Positions 3,128 through 34,499 of a stretch of DNA of 44,024 nt are shown in pieces. The position numbers were made by a program, and so were the translations under genes. Below the pieces are notes generated by a model. The model searched no databases. It was not told the DNA's origin and saw only the letters and a list, made by a program, of their open reading frames with translations. This stretch comes from a virus, in the IMG/VR virus record IMGVR_UViG_3300007517_000013, positions 1 to 44,024 of that record. One strand, written 5' to 3'. Position 1 is the stretch's first letter. The number at the start of each line of letters is the position of its first letter.

Positions 3128-3779
3128 GTTGTTTCCTGAAAATAGGGGAAAAATCAATATAAAGCTGGATACCCCCGAGGACAGGATATCTGCCTTCATG
3201 ATCTCGAAAATCACGAAAGAAGAACTCCATAAAGGCGATGATAAAATCATGCGCCGGTGGCTTAAGATCTGGAATCTTCTTCTCAATTACCACTCCGCTT
3301 CCCAAGCGGTCACAGCTCATGTGAAGATGTGCGCAGAAGATCCGGATATCGGGCAAATATCTGAACGTACCGCATGGTATGATCTCAAGAATGCGACCAG
3401 CATTTGGGGGAACCTGAATGAGGTTCCTTATCATGCTTCCCTAGTGCTTCTTTCAGAATATGCGATGAAGACCTTTCAGCTTGCGGCTAAGCAGCAAAAT
3501 ATAAAGGAGATGAATCGGGCCATTGCTGAAATGAGGGAGATAAGAAAAGACCTTCATAACATTTCCGATAAATCGGACTTTGACACCCCCACTTCACGGT
3601 TTGTGCTTATTATCCAGACAGGCATCGATGGACAGGCTCCAAGGACTATAGATTTGGACGATTACCAGGAGCTCCCTGATGACTTGGCCGCAGAGGTAAT
3701 TGAGGCCGTCCAAAATCAGGAGATTGACAGTGGTAAGTTTATGCAGATCGTGGAAGATTCAAAGAACGTAACTGAATAA
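3120..3779 (+). CDS. putative terminase small subunit
   Basis: The 219-residue protein ends with a one-base overlap with the terminase large subunit gene, the usual place of the small subunit that binds packaging-site DNA and feeds it to the motor. Residues about 55-90 (around SASQAVTAHVKM and ISERTAWYDL) look like a helix-turn-helix of the kind seen in small terminases. The centre is helical and could oligomerise, and the C-terminus is acidic. There is no catalytic motif, as expected. The call rests on gene order, size and the HTH-like segment. Confidence 0.6.
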   Translation: MNELFPENRGKINIKLDTPEDRISAFMISKITKEELHKGDDKIMRRWLKIWNLLLNYHSASQAVTAHVKMCAEDPDIGQISERTAWYDLKNATSIWGNLNEVPYHASLVLLSEYAMKTFQLAAKQQNIKEMNRAIAEMREIRKDLHNISDKSDFDTPTSRFVLIIQTGIDGQAPRTIDLDDYQELPDDLAAEVIEAVQNQEIDSGKFMQIVEDSKNVTE

Positions 3780-5434
3780 TGCTTAAGGCCAAACAGACAG
3801 TTTTCAATAAGCCACAGCAAGTATTTCAAGTCCTCAAAGCAGCATCTTCCAAGAATGTTTGGTCTCGGGGTACTGGGAAATCCTTTTTGATTGCTTGGAT
3901 CATACATATGATTGTTCGCTGGATGCCAAGATCCAGTTGGGCGATTGTAGGCAAGTCATACAAGCAGCTATTGACTAGAACCCTTCCAACGACCATCGCC
4001 ACCTTGGAGAGTGTTTTTGGTTACAAGCAGGATCGGGATTTTTTCGTTCGGAGAAAGCCCCCTAGGGAAAAGCGGTTTGAGACACCTATTTGTCCTCCCT
4101 TGGATTACGAACATTCTATTACTTTCAAGAATGGTGCATTTTTTCATCTGGTTTCCCTTGATGGGGGTGGTTCTACAATCCGGGGTCTTTCAATAGACGG
4201 ATTTTTGGGAGACGAGGCACTAGACATTAACAAGGAGAAGATGGACACTGATGTGGTGCCTACGAATAGGGGTAATATTCGGTTTTTTAAGAACATACCG
4301 TTTCACCACGGTAGCTTTTTTTTCTCTTCCATGGGCTATGGTCACGAGTTCAAATGGATGTTGGATTCGGGTAAATATTACGAAGATGATGGTTTTAATT
4401 TTCGGGGTGTTCGCCAGCAGATCGTGCAAAAAGAGATGGAACTGGTAGATTGTCCAGACAAGAAAAAAATGGCTGAGCTATGGACCGAAATATTGGAATT
4501 GAAGCGGAAGCTTAAGTGGTACAAAAACAAAAATGGGTTTTTGTACATGGAGGCAGATGTATTCGATAATATTGAAAATCTCGGTTGGGCTTATATCAAG
4601 GAAATGCGCCGGACGCTTTTGGAGTTCATTTTTTTGGTGGAAATGCTTAATTGGTTTCCTGAAGGAATTGATGCCGGGTTTTACTTTGCCCTTAATCGTT
4701 CTGATCACGGCTATTCCAATAAGTTTGATCAGGGCTTTATAGGGTCGTTGTCCCATGACTCTGAGGCCGTCAAAAAACCAGATTGCAGAATGGACACTGA
4801 CCTGGTATCTGGACAGCCCCTCAGGATAGCGGTTGATTGGGGCAGCCATATAAACTGCCTTTCCGTAACCCAGTTATTGACTAGTATAAACACGCTTCGA
4901 TTCCTCAAGAACCTATATGTCAAGGGTGATATATTAGACAAACTGGCTAATGATTTCTGTAATTACTACCATCATCACAATAAGAAGGAAGTTTACATGA
5001 GCTATGGTCACGATGGTAACGTAAGCCATGCAAACAGTAAACTAACATATGCCGAGCAGTTCGCCAAAATACTTGAGACAAGGGGATGGATTGTACACTT
5101 GTCCTATGAAGCCGTTCCGCTTAGCCAGATGGAAAGGTATTTGCTCTGGGCTAAAGTACTGCAGAATACAAGCAATGCCAAGCGAGGTAAGCCATTTGAT
5201 TCATCATTACCCATGGTAGAGTTCAACCTTGATAATTGTAATGAGACATTTGTCTCCATGCAGAATGCCCCTGCAAAGGAGGGGCGTAATGGAATTGAAA
5301 AGAATAAGAGTTCGGAGCGTAATGCGTTAATCCCACAAGAGGAAGCCACGCACCTCAGTGACACAGCTGACTACAACTTAACCGGTATAGTTCGAGATCC
5401 TTTTTCAAGTCTCCCTGGATACATTGGTTTTTAG
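3779..5434 (+). CDS. terL: terminase large subunit
   Basis: This 551-residue ATPase-nuclease is the packaging motor. The Walker A motif is WSRGTGKS at residues 28-35, with an Arg in the variable position typical of large terminases. The Walker B-like acidic pair is Asp145-Glu146 in GFLGDEAL. The C-terminal RNase H-like nuclease begins near residue 350 with Asp353 in AVDWGS, and a further acidic position lies in YGHDGN. The length is normal for the family. The gene follows the putative small subunit with a one-base overlap and is closed by a terminator 20 nt downstream. Confidence 0.9.
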   Translation: MLKAKQTVFNKPQQVFQVLKAASSKNVWSRGTGKSFLIAWIIHMIVRWMPRSSWAIVGKSYKQLLTRTLPTTIATLESVFGYKQDRDFFVRRKPPREKRFETPICPPLDYEHSITFKNGAFFHLVSLDGGGSTIRGLSIDGFLGDEALDINKEKMDTDVVPTNRGNIRFFKNIPFHHGSFFFSSMGYGHEFKWMLDSGKYYEDDGFNFRGVRQQIVQKEMELVDCPDKKKMAELWTEILELKRKLKWYKNKNGFLYMEADVFDNIENLGWAYIKEMRRTLLEFIFLVEMLNWFPEGIDAGFYFALNRSDHGYSNKFDQGFIGSLSHDSEAVKKPDCRMDTDLVSGQPLRIAVDWGSHINCLSVTQLLTSINTLRFLKNLYVKGDILDKLANDFCNYYHHHNKKEVYMSYGHDGNVSHANSKLTYAEQFAKILETRGWIVHLSYEAVPLSQMERYLLWAKVLQNTSNAKRGKPFDSSLPMVEFNLDNCNETFVSMQNAPAKEGRNGIEKNKSSERNALIPQEEATHLSDTADYNLTGIVRDPFSSLPGYIGF

Positions 5435-22169: not shown

Positions 22170-22171
22170 TC

Positions 22172-22206
22172 AAACCCTGTCCAACAAAATCGGACAGGGT
22201 TTTTTT
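22172..22206 (+). terminator. rho-independent terminator after the tape measure gene
   Basis: A perfect 11-bp stem, AAACCCTGTCC against GGACAGGGTTT, with a 9-nt loop is followed by T residues. It separates the late tail unit from the convergent integrase gene. Confidence 0.9.
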
Positions 22207-22261
22207 ATTAATGTCCCCAAAATACCCAAAAACGCATTGTTTGACCTGTTTGACGGATTTG

Positions 22262-30602: not shown

Positions 30603-33600
30603 ATGTCTGAAAAATACAAATACAGCCTCGAAACCGGGTCAAGGAAATACCATTGCCCAAGCTGCACCAAGAAGACCTTTGTCAAATATGTATTCACAGG
30701 TACCCGGGATTATGTGGGGGAGGACTTTGGCAGGTGCGACCGGGAAAACAATTGTGGCTATCACCGCCTTCCGGAGTCGGATATCCCCACGCCCCCACAC
30801 CCCCTTACTAAAGAAAAACTTCCGCCGCCCACAGTCGTTTTTCCGGATAACGACTACCTGAAAAGTATCAAAAGTGCAAGTCCCGGTAATTTTGCGGTTT
30901 TCTGCCAAAATCAACTTTCCATCACCAAAGAACATTTGGCAAAATGGAACATGGGCGCACGGTGGATTTTCGATGCCTTCGTTTTGTCCAACTCAAAAGG
31001 GCAGAGCCTCAATGTCAAATTCGTGGCCTACACCCCCGAGGGAAAGCGGGATAAATCCGAGGGGACAGGGGGCGCACCGAAATATATACCCCATTACCTG
31101 GGCAAGTCCTACCTGCGCAACCAGAAGATCGAGACCGACAACGCACGGCTTGAGGACTGGCAGGACTACTACAAGTTTGGCCGCTGCTTCTTCGGGGAAC
31201 ACCTATGGGATCCCACCAAGAACACATGCCTGGTAGAAAGTGAAAAGACAGCGGTGATAGCCGCTTATTTTTTCCCATCGGTCAACTGGCTCGCCACCGG
31301 GGGAAACAACGGAATGACCTTTGAGCATTTTGGCGTGTTCAACGGATACCGGGGCCGGATCTGGAACCTGGTGGACAACGATATCGCCGGCTACAAAAAG
31401 TCGAAGACCATACAGTGGCTCGACAAGCTGGGCGAGATGCGGGACGATCCCGCCGAAATCGTCTCTGTCAACCTGCAGGTGGGCAAACCAAAAGGCTGGG
31501 ACCTTGCCGACCGGATTATTTACGATTTTTACAAGGACGAAAAGCAGTTTCTCCACGACCTGGATTACGCCATCGACTGCCGCCAGAAAGTCGAGATAGA
31601 TGAAGAATCGGGAGAGGTGCGCATCGTTGGGATATTCAGCGAAATAAAGCCAGACCCCAAGGAGCTGCGGAGGGCCATACAGGTGGGAAACCGGATTTTT
31701 GAGGGAAAGGTAAACCTGCTCATTAAAACGGATACCAACACAATTGACCTGATGCGGGCCATCGCCCACTTTGGAGAGGATGGAAGAGCTATCGGTCTTA
31801 AGGTGTTTGAGGCGGGGGGAATCGAAAAGGCCGCCGCCGATGCTGTCTTTGAGTTGGCACTGATGGACAGGGACGAAAGTCCCAAGCTGTTCTTTCAGAA
31901 AGCGAAGGATGCGGGGGTCGAAGTGCGGTATATCAAGACAGCCCGATCCGAAGCCGCAGAGGGAGCCGAGGGGATAGACGCACACGACTGGGTGATCACC
32001 TGGCCGGACGATCTCGGGGAGCAAGAGGGCTTCGATGAGTTCAAGCTTCGGGAGCAGCTCTTTGCCTACTCCTACCTGGAGCATAAGAACTGCATCTGGT
32101 TTGCCGTCTTTGACAATGGCAAGCGGCAGATTGGTTTCTATCGGATTTCCAATTTTGTGGTGCGGCCGCTGTATCTGATCAAGTCCAAGACAGACCCGAA
32201 GCGGCTATTTGAGGTGAAGAATATCCACGGGGTAAAGTATATCCTGGACATCCCGGCCAAGGCCTTGGTGAGTATGACGGAGTTCCAGGTCTTTTGCGAG
32301 AGCCACGGCAATTTCCTGTTTGAGGGATCAAAGGCGCAGTTCACCAAGATCAAGCGCAAGCTGTATGACAATACCAAGGATGCAGAAGAAATAAAAATGC
32401 TCGGGTGGCAGGATGACGGATTCTATGCCTTTGCCAACGGTGTATTTGAGGAGAAATTCACCAAAGTTGATGAATACGGGATCATCAAGCACATCATCCC
32501 CAAGGGAGAGAATGAGGCGGAGGAAAAATACTTCTTCATACCCGCCATGTCCTCGATCTACAAGGATGAGAAGGACCAGTATGACATGGAAAAGAAGTTT
32601 GTGTATGTCAAGCGGCCCGATGTGAAGTTCAGCGATTGGGCGGAGCTTTTTTTCGATACCTATGGCGAAAACGGCATCCTTGGCATGAGCTACTATATAT
32701 CCTGTCTTTTCAGGGATATGATATACGGCAGGTTTAAGTTCTTCCCGCACCTCTTCCACTTCGGACCTCCCGGCACGGGCAAGAGTACGATGTGCTGGAG
32801 CATGCAGTATATGTTCGGTTTGGAGCGAAAGCCCTTTAACCTCAACTCGGGTACGGCGGTCGGCTTTCACCGGACCTTTGCGCAGACCCGAAACGCCCTC
32901 GTTTGGTTTGATGAGTATAGCAATTCCAACGACTTCAAGCGGATCCAGGACTTGAAGTCTTCCTACGATGGTTCCGGACACGTGAAGGGCGAGTGGTCCG
33001 CCTCCGGAGGGTCGAGCAACCGGACCACCACCACTCCGGTGGAGAATGGATGTAATATCTCCGGGCAGGAACTACCGATTGCGGACAACGCACTTTTCAA
33101 GCGGGTCATCCTGACCCAATACCACCAGACGATATTTTCCGATGCCGATAAGGAGCGGCTAACCCGCCTACAGAAGATGCAGGAAAAAGGCCTAAGCCAC
33201 ATCACCGGCGCACTTACCCGCTTTCGGGCAAAGATGGAAGCCGAATACTTCAAGCACTTCGATGAAGTAGAGCGGGAGATTATTGCGGAGATGGGCAACG
33301 ATCCCACCATCGAGAGCCGCATTATCAAAAACATGGCCGTCATCGCCACCACATATAAGGTGCTGAAGGATGACCTGCCATGGCCATGGAGCTGGCAAAA
33401 GATGCTCATGGTGATGAAAATAAACATCAAGTCCCAAAACAACCTGATCAGCAACGCCAAGGAGACCTCCCAGTTTTGGGATCAGGTCGAGTACTGTATC
33501 AACGAGGGAGAGCTGAAGGATCATGAGGATTTTAAGGTCGAGCATATGAACACCATCCGGATCACTGTTGATCGAAAGCCCGTGGAGAAAAACCTTGGGA

Positions 33601-33911
33601 GCTTTACCAAGGTGCTGTTTGTTCGGATCGCCACTGCCCATCCAAAGTATATGGAGGCCCTCCGGAAGCAGGGAGAAAAGAAAGGGATGGACAAAGGTTC
33701 CCTGGCGCACTACCTGACCAACGCCCCTGGGTTTATTGGGATGGTCAGCTCTACGAGGTTTCGTAACGGCAACGCCAGCTTCACAAGCTCCGCCTATGCT
33801 TTCGAATACAAGCACCTGGAGGATCAGGGGTACAACTTCGACCGGGACGATCCCGATCTTGACGCCGGGGAGGAGGGCATCAAAGTAAACAGTGCCAAAG
33901 CGGACTTTTGA
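30603..33911 (+). CDS. primase-helicase fusion protein
   Basis: The 1102-residue protein combines replication functions. Residues 18-54 form a zinc-binding motif (Cys18, Cys21, Cys45, Cys51). A TOPRIM primase domain follows with Glu212/Glu214 (CLVESEKTAV), a GGNNG turn and Asp258/Asp260 (LVDNDIAG). The C-terminal half is an AAA-type helicase with Walker A GPPGTGKST (721-729) and Walker B LVWFDEY (Asp770-Glu771). It should unwind and prime DNA at the origin; an iteron array lies directly behind it. It is one of the longest genes here, and no separate primase, helicase or polymerase gene is seen. Confidence 0.85.
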   Translation: MSEKYKYSLETGSRKYHCPSCTKKTFVKYVFTGTRDYVGEDFGRCDRENNCGYHRLPESDIPTPPHPLTKEKLPPPTVVFPDNDYLKSIKSASPGNFAVFCQNQLSITKEHLAKWNMGARWIFDAFVLSNSKGQSLNVKFVAYTPEGKRDKSEGTGGAPKYIPHYLGKSYLRNQKIETDNARLEDWQDYYKFGRCFFGEHLWDPTKNTCLVESEKTAVIAAYFFPSVNWLATGGNNGMTFEHFGVFNGYRGRIWNLVDNDIAGYKKSKTIQWLDKLGEMRDDPAEIVSVNLQVGKPKGWDLADRIIYDFYKDEKQFLHDLDYAIDCRQKVEIDEESGEVRIVGIFSEIKPDPKELRRAIQVGNRIFEGKVNLLIKTDTNTIDLMRAIAHFGEDGRAIGLKVFEAGGIEKAAADAVFELALMDRDESPKLFFQKAKDAGVEVRYIKTARSEAAEGAEGIDAHDWVITWPDDLGEQEGFDEFKLREQLFAYSYLEHKNCIWFAVFDNGKRQIGFYRISNFVVRPLYLIKSKTDPKRLFEVKNIHGVKYILDIPAKALVSMTEFQVFCESHGNFLFEGSKAQFTKIKRKLYDNTKDAEEIKMLGWQDDGFYAFANGVFEEKFTKVDEYGIIKHIIPKGENEAEEKYFFIPAMSSIYKDEKDQYDMEKKFVYVKRPDVKFSDWAELFFDTYGENGILGMSYYISCLFRDMIYGRFKFFPHLFHFGPPGTGKSTMCWSMQYMFGLERKPFNLNSGTAVGFHRTFAQTRNALVWFDEYSNSNDFKRIQDLKSSYDGSGHVKGEWSASGGSSNRTTTTPVENGCNISGQELPIADNALFKRVILTQYHQTIFSDADKERLTRLQKMQEKGLSHITGALTRFRAKMEAEYFKHFDEVEREIIAEMGNDPTIESRIIKNMAVIATTYKVLKDDLPWPWSWQKMLMVMKINIKSQNNLISNAKETSQFWDQVEYCINEGELKDHEDFKVEHMNTIRITVDRKPVEKNLGSFTKVLFVRIATAHPKYMEALRKQGEKKGMDKGSLAHYLTNAPGFIGMVSSTRFRNGNASFTSSAYAFEYKHLEDQGYNFDRDDPDLDAGEEGIKVNSAKADF

Positions 33912-34069
33912 TGGTACCGTTTGTCGACAAAAAAGGAAATGGCCTATGGGCCGTCTCTTTTTTTGGAAAAAAAAGCTTCCCCGCTATGTGGCAATATCCT
34001 GTCAAACACGTCAAACATGTCAAACAAAAATCAAAATCTATCTATATATGCTTAAAACAAGGTTTTTGA
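33911..34069 (+). CDS. possible small protein overlapping the iterons
   Basis: A 52-residue frame begins with an ATG that overlaps the primase-helicase stop (TGATG). Three iteron units fall in frame and encode Val-Lys-His repeats. The overlap suggests coupling, but the iterons alone could keep the frame open, so coding is doubtful. A second short frame (ATG 34165 to TGA 34261-34263) ends in an ATGA overlap with the next gene and is equally uncertain. Confidence 0.3.
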   Translation: MVPFVDKKGNGLWAVSFFGKKSFPAMWQYPVKHVKHVKQKSKSIYICLKQGF

Positions 34070-34238
34070 ATTTGAAAAAGGTGTTTTTCTGTTTGACACT
34101 GTTTGACAGTGTTGGAACATGTTTTTTTCGTCCACGCTGTCAAACAGCGTTTGACAGTGAAGAAATGGCAAAAGGTGCGTTTCCAGTCAATGGAGGCGGT
34201 TTTATGGGTTTGTTTGACATGTTTGACACGTTTGACGG
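34001..34238. repeat. iteron array, candidate replication origin
   Basis: The heptamer GTCAAAC or its complement GTTTGAC occurs ten times. Left: three direct 9-bp units at 34001, 34010 and 34019. Middle: GTTTGAC at 34091 and 34101, and a perfect inverted repeat at 34137-34157 (CTGTCAAAC, spacer AGC, GTTTGACAG). Right: three reverse 9-bp units at 34212, 34221 and 34230. Between left and middle lies AT-rich DNA (34026-34090). Iterons plus an AT-rich unwinding element behind a primase-helicase gene are typical of an origin; a multi-site operator is the alternative. No gene with certainty occupies 33912-34259. Confidence 0.65.
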
Positions 34239-34259
34239 TATTGTGTGTCCCGGAAAAAA

Positions 34260-34499
34260 ATGACGACCGAAAAAGTAACAATCGAACTCGAAGTGCTTGA
34301 ATCCATCCGAGACCTTCAGATATACGAGGGTGGCCGGTGGCAGCGGCGTATTGGGATGCTGTATTTCCATCAGCTTGAAGACGGTCACTTCGTCTTACAC
34401 CTGATCACGGACAAGACGAACGGAGAATGGCTGAACAAGATGACCAACCAAAAAAAAATATATGTCCCAAAAGAAAGAATCCAAGCCGAAACCCGATGA
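34260..34499 (+). CDS. hypothetical early protein
   Basis: The start at ATG 34260 gives 79 residues; a few codons of upstream frame from 34245 are possible. The protein is mixed alpha/beta (VTIELEVLESIRDL, then GGRWQRRIGMLYF). No family recognised. It directly follows the iteron array, which could regulate it, and overlaps the next small gene by 38 nt. Confidence 0.5.
   Translation: MTTEKVTIELEVLESIRDLQIYEGGRWQRRIGMLYFHQLEDGHFVLHLITDKTNGEWLNKMTNQKKIYVPKERIQAETR

Follow-up and report, generated by a model that had tools for sequence, protein, structure and literature searches.

A putative iteron-type replication origin with fixed layout and changing word downstream of a primase-helicase gene in tailed Bacteroidota phages

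Introduction

The Rep protein of the SaPIs recognises, with its C-terminal domain, an iteron origin located directly downstream of the rep gene (PMC7581432). The origins of PICIs always contain two sets of iterons with an AT-rich region between them, and a rep-ori segment can sustain the replication of a plasmid (PMC6092414). The locus described here resembles these replicons, in which an initiator helicase, with or without a fused primase, is followed by short iterons directly 3′ of rep (PMC7581432, PMC6092414).

The locus lies in a virus record of 44,024 bp, the whole of which is called the window below. Its genes include a terminase-like, a tape-measure-like, a tyrosine integrase, a DNA methylase and a ThyX gene, other structural-looking ORFs and a gene for a primase-helicase of 1102 aa. 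Close relatives of this phage are found in IMG/VR and in the chromosome of Algoriphagus resistens, with primase-helicases that are 65–73% identical (locus L006 is the same prophage as L129, from Algoriphagus).

According to our analysis, the segment 34001–34236 is very probably an iteron-type origin, for which the primase-helicase encoded upstream would be a self-loading initiator acting via its C-terminal winged helix. The array is most likely the start point of phage DNA copying. A search of the open-access literature, to which most subscription papers do not belong, brought up no description of origins of this kind in such phages.

Results

Organisation of the array in the window

An earlier note on this DNA had described ten GTCAAAC/GTTTGAC heptamers behind the primase-helicase gene, and all ten are present as exact copies (Table 1). 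The array starts 90 bp past the stop codon of this gene. The note had also proposed to look for the heptamer elsewhere in the genome; the window has 18 copies, ten of them within 236 bp, and shuffles give 5.6 ± 2.6. An eleventh unit, a variant in the M block that keeps the 10-bp step, is an addition to the earlier description. The symmetric three-unit arms are as described, the outer arms being 33 nt long and 88% complementary, and both the perfect 9-3-9 inverted repeat and the 65-bp AT-rich stretch were found again. Cumulative GC skew over the window was broad, with no sharp switch at 34.1 kb, and was thus uninformative.

Table 1. Positions of the array, its neighbours and related features in the window
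Feature	Position	Strand	Remarks
Terminase-like gene	3779–5434		About 29 kb from the array
Second small array	22170–22254		Units 22170 (−), 22180 (−), 22239 (+), 22248 (+); same word as the main array
Primase-helicase, 1102 aa, proposed initiator (Rep)	30603–33911	+	Pfam, profile match, AlphaFold2 model, Foldseek
Predicted C-terminal winged-helix domain (about aa 977–1075), proposed iteron reader	33531–33827	+	AlphaFold2 secondary structure, co-variation
Terminator-like hairpin and T run	33939–33961	+	Between primase stop and array; consensus scan only
Exact heptamers	34001, 34010, 34019 (−); 34091, 34101 (+); 34139 (−); 34149 (+); 34212, 34221, 34230 (+)		GTCAAAC/GTTTGAC
L arm	34001–34025	−	Units 34001, 34010, 34019; 9-bp steps; same block in relatives
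AT-rich gap, proposed DNA unwinding element	34026–34090		78% AT (window, 53%)
M block	34091–34117	+	Units 34091, 34101, 34111 (GTTGGAA); 10-bp steps; degenerate fourth near 34121
M′ block	34130–34155		Inverted unit 34139, with a degenerate neighbour near 34130, then unit 34149 (+); holds the 9-3-9 repeat (34137–34145/34149–34157)
Second spacer	34156–34211		55% AT
R arm	34212–34236	+	Units 34212, 34221, 34230; 9-bp steps

Conservation of the layout and change of the word

The origin reading, which the earlier note had preferred, was to be given up if homologous phages kept the genes and lacked the array. Our results showed that the array is nearly always kept with the primase-helicase, at constant geometry and with a different word, and the preferred reading is borne out in this sense. 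The L arm, M, M′ and R arm stand at matching offsets in the window, L006, L007 and L008, over a span of 236–239 bp, and units equivalent to those of the M′ block were found in L006 and L007. The distance from the last M′ unit (34149 in the window) to the R arm is 63 bp in all four, and the words of this set are GTTTGAC, GTTTGAA/C/T and GTTGGAA. In L006 and L008 another gene lies between primase and array, and the array is still kept.

Exact searches of the viral collection with GTTTGACNNGTTTGAC and GTTNNA patterns returned mostly chance matches and collagen-like coding repeats; such searches fail to find relatives, since the word is not the same from one lineage to the next. Some viral contigs (L263, L277, L281, L285, L289, and L296) contain long stretches of AGTTGGAGCAGTTGCAGC-type repeats that are unrelated to the array.

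A word-free scan, anchored on primase homologues, looked for 6-mers or 7-mers of any sequence with clustered copies on the two strands. It covered phage records, viral contigs, and genomes from the order to which Algoriphagus resistens belongs. It found an array mostly just downstream of primase-helicase homologues, in Bacteroidota phages and prophages. The general layout has three inverted units at steps of 8–10 bp, followed by an AT-rich gap and by three or four units at steps of 10 bp; inverted units come next, and after another gap three units close the array. Besides GTTTGAC and GTTGGAA, the lineage words include TGTAGGT, TGTAGGA, TGTCCGA, TGTCAGA/G, CGTTGTA, GGGGAAA, TGCTACA, TGTTGGA, and TTGAGA, and a TGTnnGA-like skeleton is common to most of them.

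At least 8 copies of one word, on both strands and within 800 bp downstream of the primase, were present at 60 of 86 loci, a set that includes near-duplicates and leaves 42 array-bearing lineages at <80% helicase identity. The same count was reached by 1 of 76 upstream regions, by none of the 86 stretches of 800 bp at the 3′ end of the gene, and by 1 of 258 shuffled downstream regions. At some of the remaining loci the array lies 1–3 kb from the primase (Porphyromonas phages, Microcystis phage), and L373 has an array with more mixed words. L361, L362, L363, and L396 bear GGGAAA/GGGGAA arrays. The Cellulophaga phage Ingeline_1 (L378) has a primase homologue and no recognisable array in its whole genome. 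The first gap is AT-richer than its flanks in 30 of the 32 measurable loci (mean difference +0.23).

Two observations stand beside this survey. A CTGACA array was seen in the Pseudomonas phage UFJF_PfPro, a Peduoviridae prophage (L385, 814–1081), about 3.4 kb from a distant homologue, which suggests that the layout may reach beyond Bacteroidota. In many arrays, a motif resembling TGATTATCA could be made out by eye in one spacer or in both (for example in L360, L365, L366, L368, and L132), and it is possibly the site of a host factor (IHF/HU-like).

The primase-helicase as candidate initiator

The primase-helicase comprises a Zn-ribbon (Zn_ribbon_16), a DUF6371 primase-like N-terminal part which matches DnaG-type primases in profile comparison, an AAA+ helicase and a predicted C-terminal winged helix. 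We modelled aa 480–1102 with AlphaFold2 (pLDDT 88, 50 sequences). The model ends with a helix-helix-strand-strand unit preceded by two strands, and we read this unit as a probable winged helix. The solved structures best matched by Foldseek were SCCmec Cch (5dgk, E 4e-15) and SaPIbov1 Rep (8tch, E 4e-14), over about 620 columns, followed by poxvirus D5/E5 and the SaPI5 primase-helicase. At the sequence level, the helicase half is only 10–13% identical to Cch and SaPIbov1 Rep, and Pfam DUF927 was matched by 5 of 16 homologues. Porphyromonas phage028a (L379, 4664–8061) has its primase-helicase divided between two neighbouring genes, each annotated as DNA primase.

As binder of the array, the earlier note had considered either the primase-helicase or a small neighbour. 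The first is now the best candidate, by its predicted Cch/SaPIbov1 Rep fold and by a winged-helix region that tracks the word (see below). The second was rejected: the small ORF at 34245–34499 has no family match, and no relatives of it were found among viral contigs.

Co-variation of the word and the winged helix

Word distance was compared to protein distance block by block in a partial Mantel analysis of the 42 lineages, with helicase distance removed. The block aa 985–1070 gave a partial correlation of 0.176, a value reached in none of 200 permutations, while the blocks from 490 to 960 gave no word signal. With helicase distance taken out, no block other than the C-terminal winged-helix region follows the word, and the effect is modest. 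Word orientation was hand-corrected for L367, L368, L369, and L387, and some of the words used as tree labels were anchored by hand.

At the residue level, the top mutual-information column was aa 1061 (z 9.9), which sits in a wing strand of the model. It is an arginine in 6 of 6 cases with TGTCAG words and a lysine in 4 of 4 with TGTCCG words, mostly a proline or a valine with TGTAGG, and a glutamine with TGCTACA; outside these words, arginine and lysine each occur once (TTGAGA, TGCCACA). Over the whole protein, mutual information has a high background (mean z about 1–2). The C-terminus, which makes up 13% of the columns, holds 5 of the top 25, and because several high columns lie outside it, we relied on aa 1061 and the Mantel result and on no other column. 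In a tree built from the helicase part, the middle pair of the word and aa 1061 change 21 times each. Phylogeny-aware paired contrasts gave 3, 4, and 8 informative pairs, which never pointed in the wrong direction and were too few for significance.

We consider the co-variation of aa 985–1070 with the word as good evidence at the domain level, and the residue-level reading of aa 1061 as a lead. Recognition of the iterons by the C-terminal domain is proposed from this sequence co-variation.

Proposed mechanism

We propose that the C-terminal winged helix would bind the GTTTGAC units to the left and right of the AT-rich gap, where oligomers of the initiator would assemble. The 78% AT segment may then melt and one or more helicase rings may load on single strands; priming would fall to the primase-like domain fused at the N-terminus. 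As the layout is fixed and the word drifts with the winged helix, each lineage would therefore have its own origin specificity.

A broader proposal is tentative, and we hold it to be possible rather than probable. The temperate phages of Bacteroidota may have modular, fast-switching origins, built on an invariant scaffold: a pair of half-origins set back to back, to which one clade adds a distant four-unit site at int. Changes in the winged helix would re-set the seven-base word, with aa 1061 reading its two central bases (arginine for CA, lysine for CC). The words would then define compatibility groups, so that co-resident prophages and satellites could replicate independently. The scan provides a script-based route to the origins of these Bacteroidota phages. 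The approximately 40 natural pairs of word and initiator form a panel for how a self-loading helicase reads DNA, and allow testing whether origin words decide which prophages can coexist.

Comparison with known replicons

By position, layout and predicted fold, the locus corresponds to a Rep-ori replicon of the SaPI/PICI type, elaborated into four blocks and with a hypervariable word. This form is common to a large group of tailed Bacteroidota phages and prophages. The array lies directly 3′ of the helicase gene (within 800 bp in the 60 loci given above), the L arm and the M block form two iteron sets around the AT-rich gap, with two further blocks behind them, and the predicted model matches the Rep/Cch helicase fold in Foldseek. 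Three features differ from SaPIs and PICIs. The carriers are full-size tailed phages of Bacteroidota, the units are arranged in four blocks with fixed steps (3 – gap – 3/4 – inverted 2/3 – gap – 3), and the N-terminal part is DnaG/toprim-like with DUF6371, whereas SaPIs have AEP primases. PICIs are satellites that lack a full capsid and tail gene set of their own, which does not apply to the 44-kb record; because this record is a phage with structural-looking genes, we call the window a PICI-type replicon and not a PICI.

SCCmec Cch and SaPIbov1 Rep (DUF927/MCM-like) are the closest in fold to the helicase half, and we know of no four-block origin reported for them. In P4, the alpha protein combines primase, helicase and DNA binding and acts with iterons, through two cis sites, ori1 and crr, the second of which is required. 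The window shares with P4 this kind of protein and the iterons, and its small array by the integrase recalls the second cis site of P4; primase type and iteron layout are different. The lambda O origin also has iterons beside an AT-rich unwinding element. Its sites lie inside the O gene and O has no helicase, whereas in the window the sites stand apart from the gene and a helicase is part of the proposed binder.

Alternative readings and the second small array

The earlier note had given a co-operative operator as its alternative, in which a repressor or activator on the array would control the genes downstream of the primase. Repeated short sites can act as operators, repressor-like genes are present in the window, and there is a promoter-like match at 34232–34261; promoter matches are, however, no better than in shuffles (2 vs 1.4). 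This reading is weakened because the array sits 3′ of the primase, before different genes in different phages: the genes that follow it differ between the window, L006, L008 and the Microcystis and Porphyromonas phages, while the array stays tied to the primase-helicase. The recurrence of the AT-rich gap among loci and a word that tracks the C-terminus of Rep also speak against it, and we consider an operator unlikely.

A structural element, in which the 33-nt inverted arms form a hairpin in single-stranded DNA or RNA, is very unlikely. The single strand does fold better than shuffles (z −6.4), but any pair of opposed iteron arms folds in this way. Moreover, the arm pairs mismatch in L007 (3 of 3, at position 7), in L388 (2 of 3) and in L008 (middle pair), so that the sites are kept and the pairing is not.

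The second small array, which the earlier note had not reported, lies in the gap of about 90 bp between the convergent tape-measure-like and integrase genes. Its offsets (0, 10, 69, and 78) are identical in the window and in three close relatives, G002, G003, and L388, and in G002 and G003 it also lies beside int; G004, whose word is GTTGGAA, has no second array. This copy beside the integrase, and the layout of arms around a centre, resemble an attP-like recombination site with integrase arm sites. Yet some 11 kb separate the main array of the window from int, and in Algoriphagus resistens the 18-bp att repeat AAGTGCACTCGGAAGGAT, at tRNA-Arg (361786 in L444, 402612 in L445, G001:C1), lies on the other side of int. 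It bounds a prophage of about 40.8 kb, a little longer than the IMG/VR record, with its proposed origin near 371.1 kb of contig C1; within this prophage both arrays are unbroken rather than split by integration. The attP reading is thus largely refuted, for the second array as for the main one, and retains a very slight probability.

A partition or packaging site (parS- or pac-like) is just as improbable: clustered repeats beside an AT-rich segment occur in partition sites too, but a Pfam scan of part of the ORFs in the window brought up no ParA/ParB-like gene, the terminase-like gene is far away (Table 1), and the linkage of the array is to the helicase.
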